Source: Gemmatimonas sp.
Lineage (GTDB): Bacteria; Gemmatimonadota; Gemmatimonadetes; Gemmatimonadales; Gemmatimonadaceae
Length of the DNA: 33,185 bases
Assembly: GCA_011390885.1 (NCBI GenBank)
Contig: JAABRO010000032.1
Location: 1-33,185, forward strand
Direction of reading: 5' to 3'
A program made the position numbers and the translations under genes. Under the pieces are notes generated by a model. That model ran no database searches and was not told the origin of the DNA. It saw nothing but the letters and a program-made list of their open reading frames with translations. Numbering within the stretch: the stretch's first letter is position 1; every line of letters begins with the position of its first letter. Positions 11,963 to 18,159 of the stretch are shown in pieces.

Positions 11963-12919
11963 ATGCACGTCCTTACCGGTCAGTCCGATCGCACCGTCGA
12001 CCAGCGTGACCTGCTGGCCGTGGCCCGCGCGACCCTCGACGAACACTGGGCGGTCTCCGCCGTGCCCGCCGAACGCCGCGCCCTGCTGCTCGAACGCGCC
12101 GACGAGGCGGCCGTGGCCCCCGGCGAGGGACTCGGGGAGCCCATCGCGGACGGCCTCGCCCTGCTGGGGACCGCCTACGAACTGGCGGCGCTCGGACAAC
12201 TCGACCTCGCGCTGGACGCCACGCCCAGCGCTGCCCGCGACCTGGCGCGGGTCGTGCTCACCCTCGGCGCCGCTCGGGCCTACCGATGCGGCGCCGCGTT
12301 GCGTCCGCCCGTCGATGGTGGCGATGCCGCGCTCACCTGGGCGGTCCGACTCGGGGCCCTCGCCATGGTCAGCGGCCAGACCGACGTCTACGCCGACTGG
12401 TGGCAGAAGCGCGAAGGGATCGCCGCCACGGTCGAGCAGTACGCGCAGTCGCTCGACACGCTGCCGTGGGAGCCCTACGCCCGCGGCACCCTCTGGCTGG
12501 CCTGGCTGGGGCTGCTGGGCGCCCCGCTGCGGCTCCCGGTGGGCGAGGAGGAGGACGAACTCGCCCGTTCCGCGCCGCTGCCCCTGGTGGCCACGCGCAC
12601 GCGCCTGGCGGCGTTCCGCGAGCGCCGCGCCGTGCACGTCGGCCCCGGCGAGGGGCCCGTGCTCAACTCGGCCGCGCTGCGCGCCCGCATGGCGGAGTTC
12701 GCCATCCGGCACCTCGCCGATGCCACCGAGCTGCTGACGATCGCCGTACTGCGCCGCACCCTCCCCGATGTCTCGGGGGAGTTCAAGCTGCGCCTGAGCG
12801 CGGCGCGCTCCGCGATGGCCGGAGATCACGGGCAGGACGTCCTGATGGCGTGGTTGCAGGCCGCCGGCGTCACGCTGGCAGGCGGCGTGACCGCGCAGCT
12901 CGAACTGCCAGGATTCTAG
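11963..12919 (+). CDS. Hypothetical protein, mostly helical
   Basis: A 318-residue protein I do not recognise. It has no signal peptide. It begins MHVLTGQSDRTVDQRDLLAVARATLDEHW and continues as Ala/Leu-rich helices with conserved-looking aromatic segments (YADWWQKREGIAATVEQYAQ at about 134-153, and LPWEPYARGTLWLAWLGLLGAPLRLPVG). The C-terminal third (AEFAIRHLADATELLTIAVLRR, HGQDVLMAWLQAAG) could be a ligand- or protein-binding helical domain. AGGGG (11948-11952) serves either the ATG at 11963 (10 bases) or a GTG at 11960 (7 bases). Its 3' end overlaps the convergent gene by 50 bases. Confidence 0.62.
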   Translation: MHVLTGQSDRTVDQRDLLAVARATLDEHWAVSAVPAERRALLLERADEAAVAPGEGLGEPIADGLALLGTAYELAALGQLDLALDATPSAARDLARVVLTLGAARAYRCGAALRPPVDGGDAALTWAVRLGALAMVSGQTDVYADWWQKREGIAATVEQYAQSLDTLPWEPYARGTLWLAWLGLLGAPLRLPVGEEEDELARSAPLPLVATRTRLAAFRERRAVHVGPGEGPVLNSAALRARMAEFAIRHLADATELLTIAVLRRTLPDVSGEFKLRLSAARSAMAGDHGQDVLMAWLQAAGVTLAGGVTAQLELPGF

Positions 12920-13304
12920 TCCGGCCCAGCTTCTCGGCGCCCTTGGCGCGCCACACCCGGAAGACCACGCGACCGGTGGACCCGCACGGGAACGCCACGC
13001 CGCCTTCGCGCGGTCCGACGTGGCCCACCACGGGGCTGCGCTCGTTGAGGCGCGACGCGTCGGTGGCCAGATCGGCCGCTCCGGACTCGATCCGGTACCA
13101 GTGGCTCTCACCGCCGGCCCGCTCCGCCCGCACATAGTAGCGATCGTCAGCCGACCAGAACGCGGTCAGTTCGGCGTCCCGGGCATCTTCCTCCACGAAC
13201 GGGAGCGAAGTCAGGGGCGCGGGTTCGATCGCTCCAACCGGGGCGGGGCAGGCGATGACGAGCATGGCGTCTGGGGTCGAGGCGTAGAATCGTGACCACA
13301 ACAT
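12870..13304 (-). CDS. Hypothetical small protein
   Basis: The 144-residue product is not recognised. The middle (about 40-115) looks like a compact beta-rich fold: AFWSADDRYYVRAERAGGES, HWYRIESG and GRVVFRVWRAKG. The tail is basic (AVRAARSRRLPA). The ATG at 13304 is supported by a good promoter 25-30 bases upstream (-35 TTGCGT, -10 TACAAT); an internal ATG at 13265 is possible. There is no Shine-Dalgarno. The last 50 bases overlap the convergent gene. GC-rich third positions and a sensible promoter support a real gene. Confidence 0.55.
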   Translation of the reverse strand: MLWSRFYASTPDAMLVIACPAPVGAIEPAPLTSLPFVEEDARDAELTAFWSADDRYYVRAERAGGESHWYRIESGAADLATDASRLNERSPVVGHVGPREGGVAFPCGSTGRVVFRVWRAKGAEKLGRTRILAVRAARSRRLPA

Positions 13305-13328
13305 GACGGGTGTCTGCTGCGGGCGGGC

Positions 13329-13357
13329 ATTGTACGACGATCCGAGCGCACACGCAA
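13329..13357 (-). promoter_or_regulatory. Promoter of the small minus-strand gene
   Basis: On the minus strand TTGCGT (13357-13352) is followed by 17 bases and TACAAT (13334-13329, five of six -10 positions). Transcription would start near 13322, about 18 bases before the ATG at 13304. The DnaA-box cluster begins 33 bases upstream of the -35. Confidence 0.6.
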
Positions 13358-13390
13358 TACGAAGTGTCGCGCGTAAGTTGTTGACATTGA

Positions 13391-13526
13391 TGTGGATAGC
13401 GATCTTGGCGAATGTGGATAACCAGCCAAGTCCCGCATTCGCACCACCTCCCGCTCCACTCGGCTGTGGAAAACACGCCCTGTGACATGGGCCGCGATCA
13501 GGGGGCCGGGGGCAAGGTTGTCCACA
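13391..13526. promoter_or_regulatory. Cluster of four DnaA-box-like sites: candidate oriC or DnaA-binding locus
   Basis: Four 9-mers match the DnaA box TTATCCACA. They are at 13391-13399 (minus, CTATCCACA, 8/9), 13413-13421 (minus, perfect TTATCCACA), 13465-13473 (minus, TTTTCCACA, 8/9) and 13518-13526 (plus, TTGTCCACA, 8/9). The first two are 22 bases apart, two helical turns. The stretch 13376-13424 is clearly AT-richer than the surroundings, as an unwinding element would be. The whole gap 13305-13731 (427 bases) holds no gene I can support, only promoters on both sides. No dnaA, dnaN, parA, parB or gidA lies in the window, so origin function is inference. A titration or regulatory site is the alternative. 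Confidence 0.6.
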
Positions 13527-13552
13527 GAACCGCAAATCACGTTTCTTGTCTC

Positions 13553-13561
13553 TGGTAGGTT
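13553..13561 (+). promoter_or_regulatory. Possible extended -10 promoter of the amidoligase operon
   Basis: TGGTAGGTT (13553-13561) fits the extended -10 form TGnTANNNT. No -35 is evident at the usual distance. Transcription from here would give a leader of about 165 bases before the GTG at 13732. This is the best candidate upstream of the operon and only tentative. Confidence 0.3.
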
Positions 13562-13731
13562 TTCCTCATCGTGTTCGGCCGCCGAAATGGGCGCCGCCGG
13601 CCGCTCGGGCGCCGTCGATTTGACCCCACCCCATGGCGCAATCGCGCCGGAATCGACATGATGCCCGCGGTGCGCGCCGACGCGCGCCGCCCCGCCCGTT
13701 TTCCTCCTCGCAGCAGCCGGAGTCCTGCCTC

Positions 13732-14712
13732 GTGACTGAACCGCGCATCGGCCTGATCGTGGGCCGCGAATGGTCCTTTCCTCCCGCCTTCATCGAGGCG
13801 GTCAAGCGTCGCCGCGCCGGCGTGGTCGCCGAGTACGTCACGCTGGACGCGACGGCCATGGCCCAGCCGGTGCCATACACGCTGCTCATCGACCGCATTT
13901 CACACGAGGTCGGCTTCTACCGCACCTACCTCAAGCATGCGGCGATCCAGGGCGTCCGGGTGGTGAACAACCCCTTCATGTGGTCGGCCGACGACAAGTT
14001 CATCGACGCCACGCTGTCCGTGCGGCATGGGGTGGCGCACCCGAAGACCATGGTGCTCCCCAACAAGGACTACATCCCGGGGATCTCCCACACCGAGTCG
14101 CTGCGCAACCTCAACTATCCGCTCAACTGGAAGGGCGTGGCCGAGCACATCGGCTTTCCGTGCGTGCTCAAGGACGCGCACGGCGGTGGCTGGCGCGACG
14201 TGTACATCTGCCAGAGCATGGAGGAGCTGCTCGCCAGCTACAACCAGAGCGGGCTGCTCACCATGGTCGTGCAGGAGTTCATCCAGTGGGAGCAGTACGT
14301 GCGCTGCATGGTGCTCGGCCGTGAGCACGTGCTCGTCATGCCGTACGACCCGCGGGCCCGGAAGTACATCGCCGATCCGGGGTACTTGCCGACCGCGCTG
14401 CACGACCGGATCGCCGCCGACGCGCTCACGCTCTGCCGGGTGCTCGGCTACGACATGAACACGGTGGAGTTCGCCGTCCGGGACGGCATCCCCTACGCGA
14501 TCGACTTCATGAATCCGGCGCCGGACATGGACATCAACTCCCTCACCCCGGCGTACTTCGAGTGGGTGGTGGAGCACATGGCCGACATGGCGATCCGGCT
14601 GGCCACGCTGCCGCCGGGTGCGGAGCGTCCGGAAACGGCGATCCCGCCGCTCGCGGCCGGCACGCCGGCGGCCCCCGCGGTCGTGCCCGTCCCGACCCCC
14701 GCCGCCTCGTGA
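13732..14712 (+). CDS. ATP-grasp ligase (RimK-like fold)
   Basis: This 326-residue protein begins TEPRIGLIVGREWSFPPAFIEAV, a Rossmann-like N-terminal domain. The ATP-grasp core follows: GFPCVLKDAHGGGWRDVYI (141-159, ATP-binding Lys147), QEFIQWEQYVR (181-191), and the metal-binding end NTVEFAV (243-249) and YAIDFMNPAPDMD (255-267). ATP-grasp enzymes join a carboxylate to an amine or thiol through an acyl phosphate. The substrate is unknown. The tail (about 297-326) is Ala/Pro-rich. The GTG at 13732 is preferred over an ATG at 13633 because GGAG lies nine bases before it and homology starts there. It is the first gene of a four-gene operon, and its stop overlaps the next GTG (GTGA). Confidence 0.82.
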   Translation: MTEPRIGLIVGREWSFPPAFIEAVKRRRAGVVAEYVTLDATAMAQPVPYTLLIDRISHEVGFYRTYLKHAAIQGVRVVNNPFMWSADDKFIDATLSVRHGVAHPKTMVLPNKDYIPGISHTESLRNLNYPLNWKGVAEHIGFPCVLKDAHGGGWRDVYICQSMEELLASYNQSGLLTMVVQEFIQWEQYVRCMVLGREHVLVMPYDPRARKYIADPGYLPTALHDRIAADALTLCRVLGYDMNTVEFAVRDGIPYAIDFMNPAPDMDINSLTPAYFEWVVEHMADMAIRLATLPPGAERPETAIPPLAAGTPAAPAVVPVPTPAAS

Positions 14713-16121
14713 GCGGGGGAGGCGCTCCGGGCACGCCCGGTCCGGGCACGCCCGGTCTGGGCGACGACCCGATCGCGGCGGAGGCGATCGCGCGGTACCA
14801 CGACGGCCTCACCGACGACGTGGCGGCCGCGTCCGTGCAGATGCTCGACCGGCGGCTGCGCGACGAGGGGCTCTACTTCGGGGAACGTCCGCTGTGCAGC
14901 GTGCTGCGCCCGCGTTTTCTCACGGGCGCGCAGTACCGGCACGTGGGGCGCGCCTCGCGCCTCGTGGTGTCCGCCATGGAAAAGGTGCGTCAGGTCGCCA
15001 TGGCCGACGCCACCGTGCGCGCGCAGTTCCGCCTGCTCGACTGGGAGGAGCGGCTCATTCATGCCGATCCGCGGCTTCCCGTGGCCAGCCCCGTCTCGCG
15101 CCTCGACGCCTTCTTCGCCCCCGGGGCGCAGGGGCTCAAGTACACGGAGTACAACGCGGAGACGCCCGCCGGCGCGGCCTACAACGATGTCATGGCGCGC
15201 GTCTTCCTCGACCTGCCGGCCATGGGCGCCTTCCGCCGCCAGATGATCGCGCTCCCGGTGCCGGCCGCCGCGGGGCAGGTGCAGGCGCTGCTCGAGTCGT
15301 ACCACGCCTGGCGCGGCGTGCGCGAGGTCCCCACGGTGTGCATCCTCGACTGGCGCGAGGTGCCCACCTACAGCGAGTTCCTGCTGTACCAGCACCACCT
15401 CGAGGCGGCCGGTGTGCCTACCTTCATCGGTGACCCGCGCGACGCCGAGTACGCGAACGGCGTGCTCACGGTGGGGGGCAAGGCGGTCACGCTCATTTAC
15501 AAGCGCGTGCTGATCGACGAACTCGTGGAGCGGTGCGGCGTGGACTCGCCCGTGGTGCGGGCGGTGCAGGACGGGGCGGTGTGCATGGTGAACCCGTTCC
15601 GCTGCAAGCTCTTGCACAAGAAGGCGAGTCTCGCGGTGGTGAGCGACGAGCGCCACCAGGCGCTGTTCACGGGAGAAGAGCGGGCCGCGGTGGCCGCGCA
15701 CGTGCCGTGGACGCGCGTGGTCGAGGAGCGGCACACCACCTACGAAGGGGAGCCGGTCGACCTCGTGCCCTTCATGGCGGCCAACCGGGAGCGCCTCGTG
15801 CTCAAGCCCAACGACGACTACGGCGGCAAGGGCATCGTGCTCGGCTGGACCGTGGACACGACCGCGTGGGACGCGGCAATCCGCACGGCACTGGACCACC
15901 CGTATATCGTTCAGGAGCGCGTGGTGTTGCCGACGGAGGCATTCCCGGCGTGGACCGACGGTGGCCTGCACATCAGCGACCGTATGGTGGACACCGCGCC
16001 ATTCCTCGTGAACGGCGCGATGGTGGACGGCTGTCTGACCCGGATCGGGACGGACCCGTTGTTGAACGTCACGGCTGGCGGGGGCTCGAATGTCCCCACG
16101 TTCCTGGTGGAGGCACGATGA
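14709..16121 (+). CDS. Circularly permuted ATP-grasp-type ligase
   Basis: This 470-residue protein resembles the circularly permuted ATP-grasp family related to glutathionylspermidine synthase. Typical segments are LKYTEYNAETPAGAAYND (143-160), VPTVCILDWREVPTYSEF, VNPFRCKLLHKKASLAVVSDE, LVLKPNDDYGGKGIVLGW (about 362-379, nucleotide-binding loop) and the end TAGGGSNVPTFLVEA. Such enzymes form amide bonds at the cost of ATP. The N-terminus (2-20) is a Gly/Pro-rich leader with a repeated PGTPG motif. The GTG at 14709 overlaps the previous stop (GTGA), indicating coupled translation; its own stop overlaps the next ATG (ATGA). The substrate cannot be read from sequence. Confidence 0.8.
   Translation: MSGGGAPGTPGPGTPGLGDDPIAAEAIARYHDGLTDDVAAASVQMLDRRLRDEGLYFGERPLCSVLRPRFLTGAQYRHVGRASRLVVSAMEKVRQVAMADATVRAQFRLLDWEERLIHADPRLPVASPVSRLDAFFAPGAQGLKYTEYNAETPAGAAYNDVMARVFLDLPAMGAFRRQMIALPVPAAAGQVQALLESYHAWRGVREVPTVCILDWREVPTYSEFLLYQHHLEAAGVPTFIGDPRDAEYANGVLTVGGKAVTLIYKRVLIDELVERCGVDSPVVRAVQDGAVCMVNPFRCKLLHKKASLAVVSDERHQALFTGEERAAVAAHVPWTRVVEERHTTYEGEPVDLVPFMAANRERLVLKPNDDYGGKGIVLGWTVDTTAWDAAIRTALDHPYIVQERVVLPTEAFPAWTDGGLHISDRMVDTAPFLVNGAMVDGCLTRIGTDPLLNVTAGGGSNVPTFLVEAR
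14727..14756 (+). repeat. 15-bp tandem repeat, two copies
   Basis: CCGGGCACGCCCGGT occurs at 14727-14741 and 14742-14756, in frame near the start of the permuted ATP-grasp gene. It encodes the repeated Gly-Thr-Pro-Gly-Pro motif. It is the second in-frame 15-base tandem repeat in this window. Confidence 0.95.
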
Positions 16122-16933
16122 GCGGGACCCCGTACCGGCCGACGATCGGCCTGACCACGCAGACGCTGCACTCCATCGACGGCATCCCGCCGGCGCTCCC
16201 GGAGTCGTGGGTCATGAACCAGCGGTATTTCCTGGCCACGACCATGGTGGGCGGCGTGCCGTGGATGGTGCCGCTCTTCGACGACGACCTGCCCACGCTG
16301 CGGCAGATCTACGAGCGGCTCGATGGCCTGCTCATTCCCGGCGGCGTGGACATGGACCCGCGGCAGTACGGCGAGGCCATTCTCCCGGAGTGCGGCAACC
16401 TCGATCCGTCGCGGGACCGTGTGGAGCTGCAGCTCGTGCGCTGGGCGCTCGAAGACGGAAAGCCCGTGTTCGGCCTCTGCCGCGGCCTGCAGATCATCAA
16501 CGTCGCGCTCGGCGGCACGCTCTGGCAGGACCTCGCCACGCAGCGTCCGGAACTCGCCAAGCACGACTACTTTCCCACCGCGGGCTACGCCCGGCAGCAC
16601 CTCGCGCATCCGGTCACGCTCGAGCCGACGTCGCGGCTCGCCGCGCTGCTCGACGGCCCGGACACCGTGATGGTGAACAGCATGCACCATCAGGGGATCA
16701 AGGAGCTCGGCGAAGGGCTGATCGTCTCGGCGACGGCGCCCGACGGCCTGGTCGAGGCGATCGAACTGCCGGGCGACGCGTTCGCCATCGGCGTGCAGTG
16801 GCACCCGGAAGTGTTCGAGATGACGGACCCGCACACGCGCCACCTCTTCGGCGGCTTCATCGCTGCCGCCACCCGGTACGCCGAGCGCGCGCGTTCGGCG
16901 GCACCATTCGCAGGATCCGCCCAGGAGCATTGA
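16118..16933 (+). CDS. Gamma-glutamyl hydrolase, class I amidotransferase fold (peptidase C26, PuuD-like)
   Basis: The 271-residue protein has the complete triad of the class I glutamine-amidotransferase fold: nucleophile Cys121 in FGLCRGLQIIN, and His229 and Glu231 in GVQWHPEVFE. Family marks DGLLIPGGVDMDPRQYGE (69-86) and VNSMHHQGIKEL (186-197) place it with PuuD-type gamma-glutamyl-GABA hydrolases, which cut a gamma-glutamyl amide from a small amine. No synthetase domain is fused. Here it sits between two ligase genes, so it may trim or recycle the product of the operon. The ATG overlaps the upstream stop by four bases (ATGA), and its stop shares a base with the next start (TGATG). Confidence 0.9.
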   Translation: MSGTPYRPTIGLTTQTLHSIDGIPPALPESWVMNQRYFLATTMVGGVPWMVPLFDDDLPTLRQIYERLDGLLIPGGVDMDPRQYGEAILPECGNLDPSRDRVELQLVRWALEDGKPVFGLCRGLQIINVALGGTLWQDLATQRPELAKHDYFPTAGYARQHLAHPVTLEPTSRLAALLDGPDTVMVNSMHHQGIKELGEGLIVSATAPDGLVEAIELPGDAFAIGVQWHPEVFEMTDPHTRHLFGGFIAAATRYAERARSAAPFAGSAQEH

Positions 16934-18159
16934 TGAAGGCGCCCTCGCTGACCGTCGGCATCGAGGAAGAGTACCAGATCATCGATCCCGTCACGCGTGA
17001 CCTCACGCCCGGGTTCGAGTCGCTCATCCGCTCGGATGATCCGCTGCTCCTCGAGGTGAAGCCGGAGCTGCACCAGTGTCAGGTGGAGATCGGCACCAAG
17101 CCGTGCGCGACGATCGCCGAACTGCGCGAGGAGCTCACGAAGCACCGCAAGGCGGTGATCGGGGCGGCGGCGCAGCACGGGCTGGCGATCGCCTCGGCGG
17201 GCACGCACCCGTTCTCCAACTGGATGAACCAGGAGATGACGCCGAAGGAGCGCTACCTCGGCGTGAAGGCCGAGCTGCAGGATCTGGCGCACCGGCTGCT
17301 CATCTTCGGGACGCACGTGCACGTGGGCATCGAGGACGACGAGTTCCGCATCGACTGCCTGAACGCGGCGCGCTACGTCCTGCCGCACATTCTCTGCCTG
17401 TCCACCAGCTCGCCGTTCTGGTTCGGGCGCAACACGGGGCTGCACAGCTATCGCAGCATCGTGTTCAAGAACTTCCCGCGCACCGGCGTGCCGCGCGTGT
17501 TCAACGGCTGGTCGGAGTACGCCAACGTGGTGGACACGCTGGTGGAGACGCGCAGCATCCCCGACGGATCGAAGATCTGGTGGGATGTGCGGCCGCACCA
17601 CCTGTATCCCACGCTCGAGTTCCGTATCTGCGACGTGAACACGCGCGTGGACGAGGCGATCTGCGTGGCGGCCATGCTGCAGGCGGTCGTGGCGAAGATG
17701 TGGAAGCTGCGCCGCGACAACATGACCTTCCGTGTGTATCCGGCCGACCTGATCGAGGAGAACAAGTGGCGCGCGGTGCGCTGGGGGCTCGGCGGCAAGC
17801 TCATCGACTTCGGCAAGCGCAAGGAACTGCCGGCGCCCGAGGCCATCCGCGAGCTGATCAGCTGGTTCCTCGATGACGTGCTCGACGAGCTCGGCACGCG
17901 CAAGGAAGTGGAGTACGCCTTCGACATCCTGCAGCACGGCTCGAGCGCGCAGCGGCAGCTGGCCACGTACGCGCGCACGGGCGACCTGCGCGCGGTGGTG
18001 GACCAGCTCATCACCGAGACCGCCGAAGGGGTGTGCGACGTGACGCTGGGCCCGCCGCTCGACTCCGTGGATTCGCGGGTCACGGCCGCGCGCCCCGGCA
18101 CGATCGCCATGCCGATCACGCAGCCGACCGGTGCGCCGGCGGAGTCGGTGTCGGACTAG
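16933..18159 (+). CDS. Carboxylate-amine ligase, GCS2 family (YbdK-like)
   Basis: This 408-residue enzyme belongs to the glutamate-cysteine ligase type 2 family of the glutamine-synthetase fold. It has the N-terminal signature TVGIEEEYQIID (7-18), the core strand FGTHVHVGIED (125-135), SSPFWFGRNTGLHSYRS, and the metal-binding segment DVRPHHLYPTLEFRICD. YbdK of E. coli shows weak gamma-glutamylcysteine synthesis in vitro; the physiological substrate of the family is mostly unknown. The start is fixed by AGGAG (16923-16927) and by the TGATG overlap with the hydrolase gene. As last gene of the operon it supplies a third ATP-dependent amide-forming activity. No glutathione synthetase of the usual type is next to it. 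Confidence 0.9.
   Translation: MKAPSLTVGIEEEYQIIDPVTRDLTPGFESLIRSDDPLLLEVKPELHQCQVEIGTKPCATIAELREELTKHRKAVIGAAAQHGLAIASAGTHPFSNWMNQEMTPKERYLGVKAELQDLAHRLLIFGTHVHVGIEDDEFRIDCLNAARYVLPHILCLSTSSPFWFGRNTGLHSYRSIVFKNFPRTGVPRVFNGWSEYANVVDTLVETRSIPDGSKIWWDVRPHHLYPTLEFRICDVNTRVDEAICVAAMLQAVVAKMWKLRRDNMTFRVYPADLIEENKWRAVRWGLGGKLIDFGKRKELPAPEAIRELISWFLDDVLDELGTRKEVEYAFDILQHGSSAQRQLATYARTGDLRAVVDQLITETAEGVCDVTLGPPLDSVDSRVTAARPGTIAMPITQPTGAPAESVSD

Follow-up and report, generated by a model that had tools for sequence, protein, structure and literature searches.

A conserved array of DnaA boxes as a probable regulatory region of a small gene in the Gemmatimonas family

Herein we report an array of four DnaA boxes upstream of a small gene, p131, in a Gemmatimonas genome; the boxes are conserved among relatives, stand in a fixed geometry to the putative -35 element of p131 and are inherited together with this gene. 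Judged from sequence comparison, the array is probably the upstream part of the p131 promoter, where DnaA would bind and regulate, most likely activate, this gene. The window that we analysed is the whole 33,185-bp stretch of contig JAABRO010000032.1 (assembly GCA_011390885.1), and the coordinates of its relevant features are collected in Table 1.

Table 1. Positions in the window of the DnaA boxes, the p131 gene and its putative promoter elements.
Feature	Position	Strand	Sequence	Basis and conservation
p131 gene, 131-aa protein (presumed array target)	12870..13265	-		translation and orthologues
p131 -10 element, putative (17-bp spacer)	13329..13334	-	TACAAT	conservation
p131 -35 element, putative	13352..13357	-	TTGCGT	conserved across genera
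Motif between box 1 and the p131 -35 element	13373..13385	+	GTAAGTTGTTGAC (TAAGTTGTTGA in most relatives)	alignments
DnaA box 1	13391..13399	-	CTATCCACA	conserved in the window's genus and Gemmatimonas; some members have a weaker copy
DnaA box 2	13413..13421	-	TTATCCACA, perfect	conserved
DnaA box 3	13465..13473	-	TTTTCCACA	conserved, 52 bp from box 2
DnaA box 4	13518..13526	+	TTGTCCACA	conserved, 53 bp from box 3

The initial annotation of the window had noticed four DnaA-box-like 9-mers at 13391-13526, in an AT-richer gap between divergent promoters, and all four are found exactly there. In fact its estimate of one chance match per 4.7 kb was far too generous, as it assumes an even base composition: because the genome is about 71% GC, such sites are ten times rarer, with 84 sites of at most one mismatch to TTATCCACA in the 4.07-Mb genome, that is one per 48 kb, and the cluster is rarer still, about 3e-7 such clusters being expected per genome under a Poisson model. 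The window holds five box matches, four of them in the cluster, against a mean of 0.70 in dinucleotide shuffles, none of which reached five; together with the conservation described below, the shuffles rule out a chance origin of the cluster. The gap is AT-richer as claimed, with a GC content of 63.5% over 13266-13731 and 48.5% over 13360-13425 compared with 71.4% for the window, and the promoters of the window are truly divergent, minus-strand p131 lying on one side and a plus-strand operon starting at 13732 on the other. The perfect TTATCCACA occurs only three times in the assembly, namely in the array, upstream of dnaA and upstream of recA, where it lies about 125 bp from the gene (G000:C1:112768, or L007:12768). 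Near the left end of the window, at 389-592, two tRNA-Met (CAT) genes stand in tandem, 56 bp apart.

The boxes are indeed conserved in relatives, for a base-exact spacing of 22, 52 and 53 bp is kept in about 30 genomes of Gemmatimonas and the window's genus, while the spacers diverge. At the tblastn loci of the gene on the right-hand side in Gemmatimonas-type genomes the same array is found with the same three distances, and in a few of these loci one box is weaker or the spacing is off by one base. Moreover, when 179 genomes of the family were scanned for boxes 2-4 in their fixed spacing, 30 had a single match each, all of them from the window's genus (4 of 5) or from one sister genus; the reversed control pattern had no match in the same 179. 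The pairwise identity of 30 non-redundant arrays is 76-92% in the boxes and 41-46% in the spacers, both figures being slightly lowered by one array of the 30 (L051) which our script put on the wrong strand, and therefore the spacing is held while the intervening sequence drifts. The variation within boxes is almost confined to positions 1-3, and there are other conserved motifs between the boxes, namely TAAGT, CGTGAT and TCACAAA. The spacings of 22, 52 and 53 bp correspond to roughly 2, 5 and 5 turns of the helix, so that the boxes would all lie on one face.

As for the promoter of p131, the window copy of the putative -35 and -10 elements is a weak match with 8 of 12 sigma-70 consensus bases, and a scan of the window with the sigma-70 consensus did not list it; the two elements were recognized by their conservation. 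Upstream of them, the TAAGTTGTTGA motif is fixed at 19-21 bp from the -35 element and resembles the IHF consensus in some relatives, the window copy, with one mismatch, being a partial match. Box 1 and the -35 element could both be located in 28 promoters, and there the distance between them is 38 bp (17 promoters), 37 bp (10) or 36 bp (1), whereas the distance from the ATG to the -35 element ranges from 79 to 141 bp, and thus the array is fixed to the promoter and not to the reading frame. This is the arrangement expected of a DnaA-regulated promoter, in which the boxes keep a fixed place relative to the core promoter, here a putative one. With the start site placed 7 bp past the -10 element, the centres of the boxes would lie at about -73, -95, -147 and -200.

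The array and p131 also go together in their distribution. p131 is present at every array locus examined, and outside the two genera p131 and the array are both absent from the loci of the right-hand gene. With a protein profile, homologues of p131 are found in seven genera, of which five are further genera whose distant homologues are detected by the profile only, and all five have DnaA boxes upstream. For these distant homologues, eleven upstream regions of 450 bp contain 28 boxes with at most one mismatch, compared with 0.7 in dinucleotide shuffles; two of the eleven, those of L296 and of the first copy in L293, have a single such box, and the L296 region has several TTGTGCACA. Another genome found later with a wider profile (G146) has three boxes upstream of p131 in the layout of its genus. 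Altogether the number and the layout of the boxes vary between genera.

The p131 protein has no match in Pfam, where the query was a longer open frame containing p131, nor in NCBIfam, nor a significant one in the PDB. Its predicted structure is confident for the N-terminal half, a beta domain, and poor for the remainder, and Foldseek returned no significant match for it. A viral protease fragment was considered as a structural neighbour and rejected, as its best VIA-align Z of 5.2 is within the range of common arrangements.

That the array is locked to the p131 promoter through seven genera points first to transcription control, and sites located upstream of the -35 element on one helical face suit an activator, so that activation seems more probable than repression. 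DnaA would bind to the four boxes, aligned along one helical face between about -73 and -200, the bound DnaA would regulate and most likely activate the transcription of p131, and the output of p131 would thereby be tied to the amount or the nucleotide state of DnaA and hence to the replication cycle, which would give p131 a role in the cell cycle. More speculatively, p131 could serve Gemmatimonadaceae as a cell-cycle effector specific to this lineage, or as a regulator that feeds back on initiation. In this view DnaA would switch it through what is the only canonical cluster of the complete genome G026, where one site would serve both as a sensor of the initiator and as a titration site; we consider this possible and rather doubtful.

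The main rival is that the array is a datA-like, DARS-like or titration site, whose main function would be to store DnaA or to alter its nucleotide state, with p131 as a mere neighbour. Such a site is comparable to the array in several features, the comparison being one of features and not of sequence: like DARS1, DARS2 and datA of Escherichia coli, the array is a non-coding cluster of boxes away from oriC with a fixed spacing and a similar relative position between genomes, and its possible IHF-like motif may correspond to the site for IHF that datA and DARS2 have next to their boxes. In G026 it is the only cluster of TTNTCCACA boxes in the whole chromosome. Its distance from dnaA, as a fraction of the chromosome, is alike in three complete genomes (G026 0.352, G096 0.386, G095 0.360), as has been reported for the relative distances of datA and DARS in E. 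coli (PMC4585315), and its three boxes in one direction with one opposite recall the orientation pattern of the DARS core, whose boxes have a fixed spacing too (PMC5742627). However, a role in storage or titration alone does not explain why the array stays fixed to the -35 element of p131 across seven genera despite the variable distance to the gene; the number and spacing of the boxes change from genus to genus, the conserved position of the array may reflect ordinary synteny, and the resemblance to IHF sites is partial in the window. As the main function of the array this reading is unlikely, and both roles can coexist.

A different target for the array is much less probable, namely that it controls the plus-strand operon at 13732-18159 rather than p131. 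This operon encodes a RimK-like ATP-grasp protein, a circularly permuted ATP-grasp-like protein, a peptidase of family C26 and a carboxylate-amine ligase of the YbdK type, and its first gene is conserved into Chloroflexota with about 65% identity. The array does sit upstream of the operon in the window and in most relatives, but in two genomes (L201 and L203) there is no such operon next to the array, towards which a different gene is directed, and the array and p131 are nevertheless kept. The distance from the array to the operon varies by about 100 bp as well, and outside the two genera no boxes precede the homologues of the operon genes.

The possibility that the array is the chromosomal origin, which the initial annotation had proposed as one of two candidates, the other being a DnaA-titration site, has faded almost completely. 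As in a bacterial oriC, several DnaA boxes, here four, lie beside an AT-richer stretch, and the array is the densest canonical cluster of boxes. No comparable cluster was found around dnaA, either in G026, G095 and G096 or in the genome of the window. When the surroundings of dnaA and the gap between dnaA and dnaN were searched for canonical boxes, just one perfect box turned up, upstream of dnaA, and sampled stretches around the skew origin of G026 (L140, L180-L187, L159) contain no TTNTNCACA cluster. Unlike an origin, however, the array lies away from both dnaA and the GC-skew origin. The window's own assembly consists of 62 unordered contigs; dnaA is located on a different contig from the array, where it precedes dnaN, has yidC and mnmE nearby and is itself preceded by a single perfect box. 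The distance between the array and dnaA amounts to 35-39% of the chromosome in the three complete relatives. For example in G026 (4,636,964 bp), where dnaA is at 449 and the array at 1.63 Mb, negative values of the GC3 skew prevail between 2.3 Mb and the end of the record as well as over the first 20 kb, and positive ones between 0.1 and about 2.1 Mb, so that the skew turns from negative to positive near dnaA (0-60 kb) and back near 2.2 Mb; both flanks of the array have a positive skew, which places it inside a replichore. In G095 the switch is likewise near dnaA (3.69 Mb), far from the array, which again lies inside a replichore, and in G096 the skew is weak but compatible. In two further genomes, G148 and G020, the skew around the p131 array is too noisy to place an origin. 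The bias of gene orientation seen earlier in the window roughly holds, with about 71% minus-strand coding bases to the left of the cluster and about 60% plus-strand to the right, but it carries no replication signal, since the GC skew of the window has no clear switch at the cluster. Altogether, an oriC at the array was rejected on the position of dnaA and the skew in complete relatives. What is well supported in the initial reading is the DnaA site, by its base-exact spacing, its variation at positions 1-3 and the domain IV signature of DnaA given below.

Two other groups of boxes were considered. The only other four-box cluster, of 138 bp (C1:119561-119698, or L007:19561-19698), lies inside a short-chain dehydrogenase gene; three other genomes of the genus have all or part of it at identical offsets, and it is absent in G026. 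As a rival oriC it was rejected for its place within this gene, for offsets that are conserved only in the window's genus and for having no clear skew switch. A pair of boxes at C15:44998-45016 is no cluster of comparable weight.

Finally, it is hardly credible that the 9-mers are bound by a protein other than DnaA, to which the further motifs between the boxes might point, because the 9-mer is the exact DnaA consensus and varies almost nowhere but in positions 1-3, the DnaA of the group carries the domain IV signature GGRDHSTVIHS, and in each of the ten dnaA loci examined from the two genera a perfect copy of the box is conserved upstream of dnaA, so that this 9-mer seems to be used here too. 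A second DnaA-related gene was seen on another contig (G000:C60; L005:7558-9543, plus strand). Its product of 661 aa contains two Bac_DnaA AAA+ domains in tandem and no match to DnaA domain IV, and the gene adjoins a gene for an Arf-like GTPase and a DUF4388/TPR gene. Tandem Bac_DnaA matches recur in many genomes of the family, and in the three complete genomes the gene is about 60-110 kb from the array.

If DnaA does control p131 as we propose, the closest known counterpart is sda, a small checkpoint gene of Bacillus subtilis: DnaA activates it from upstream boxes, and DnaA-ATP is strongly preferred there (PMC4447404, PMC8203912). In both cases a cluster of DnaA boxes lies upstream of a small gene far from the origin, and DnaA acts as a transcription factor, presumably so for p131. 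The two differ in that p131 matches no family of Pfam or NCBIfam, and in that the p131 array belongs to another phylum and has four boxes with a fixed 22/52/53 spacing in two genera.

Our literature search found no study of the replication origin or of DnaA control in Gemmatimonadota, a large and little-studied phylum. For this group the array shows that a cluster of boxes alone does not mark oriC, as its best cluster lies far from the skew origin. Moreover, our results suggest that the replication initiator switches p131, a gene that several genera of the Gemmatimonas family possess. The array can thus serve as a test locus for DnaA as a transcription factor beyond the usual model bacteria, and p131 is a concrete gene through which the status of replication may feed into the physiology of these bacteria.
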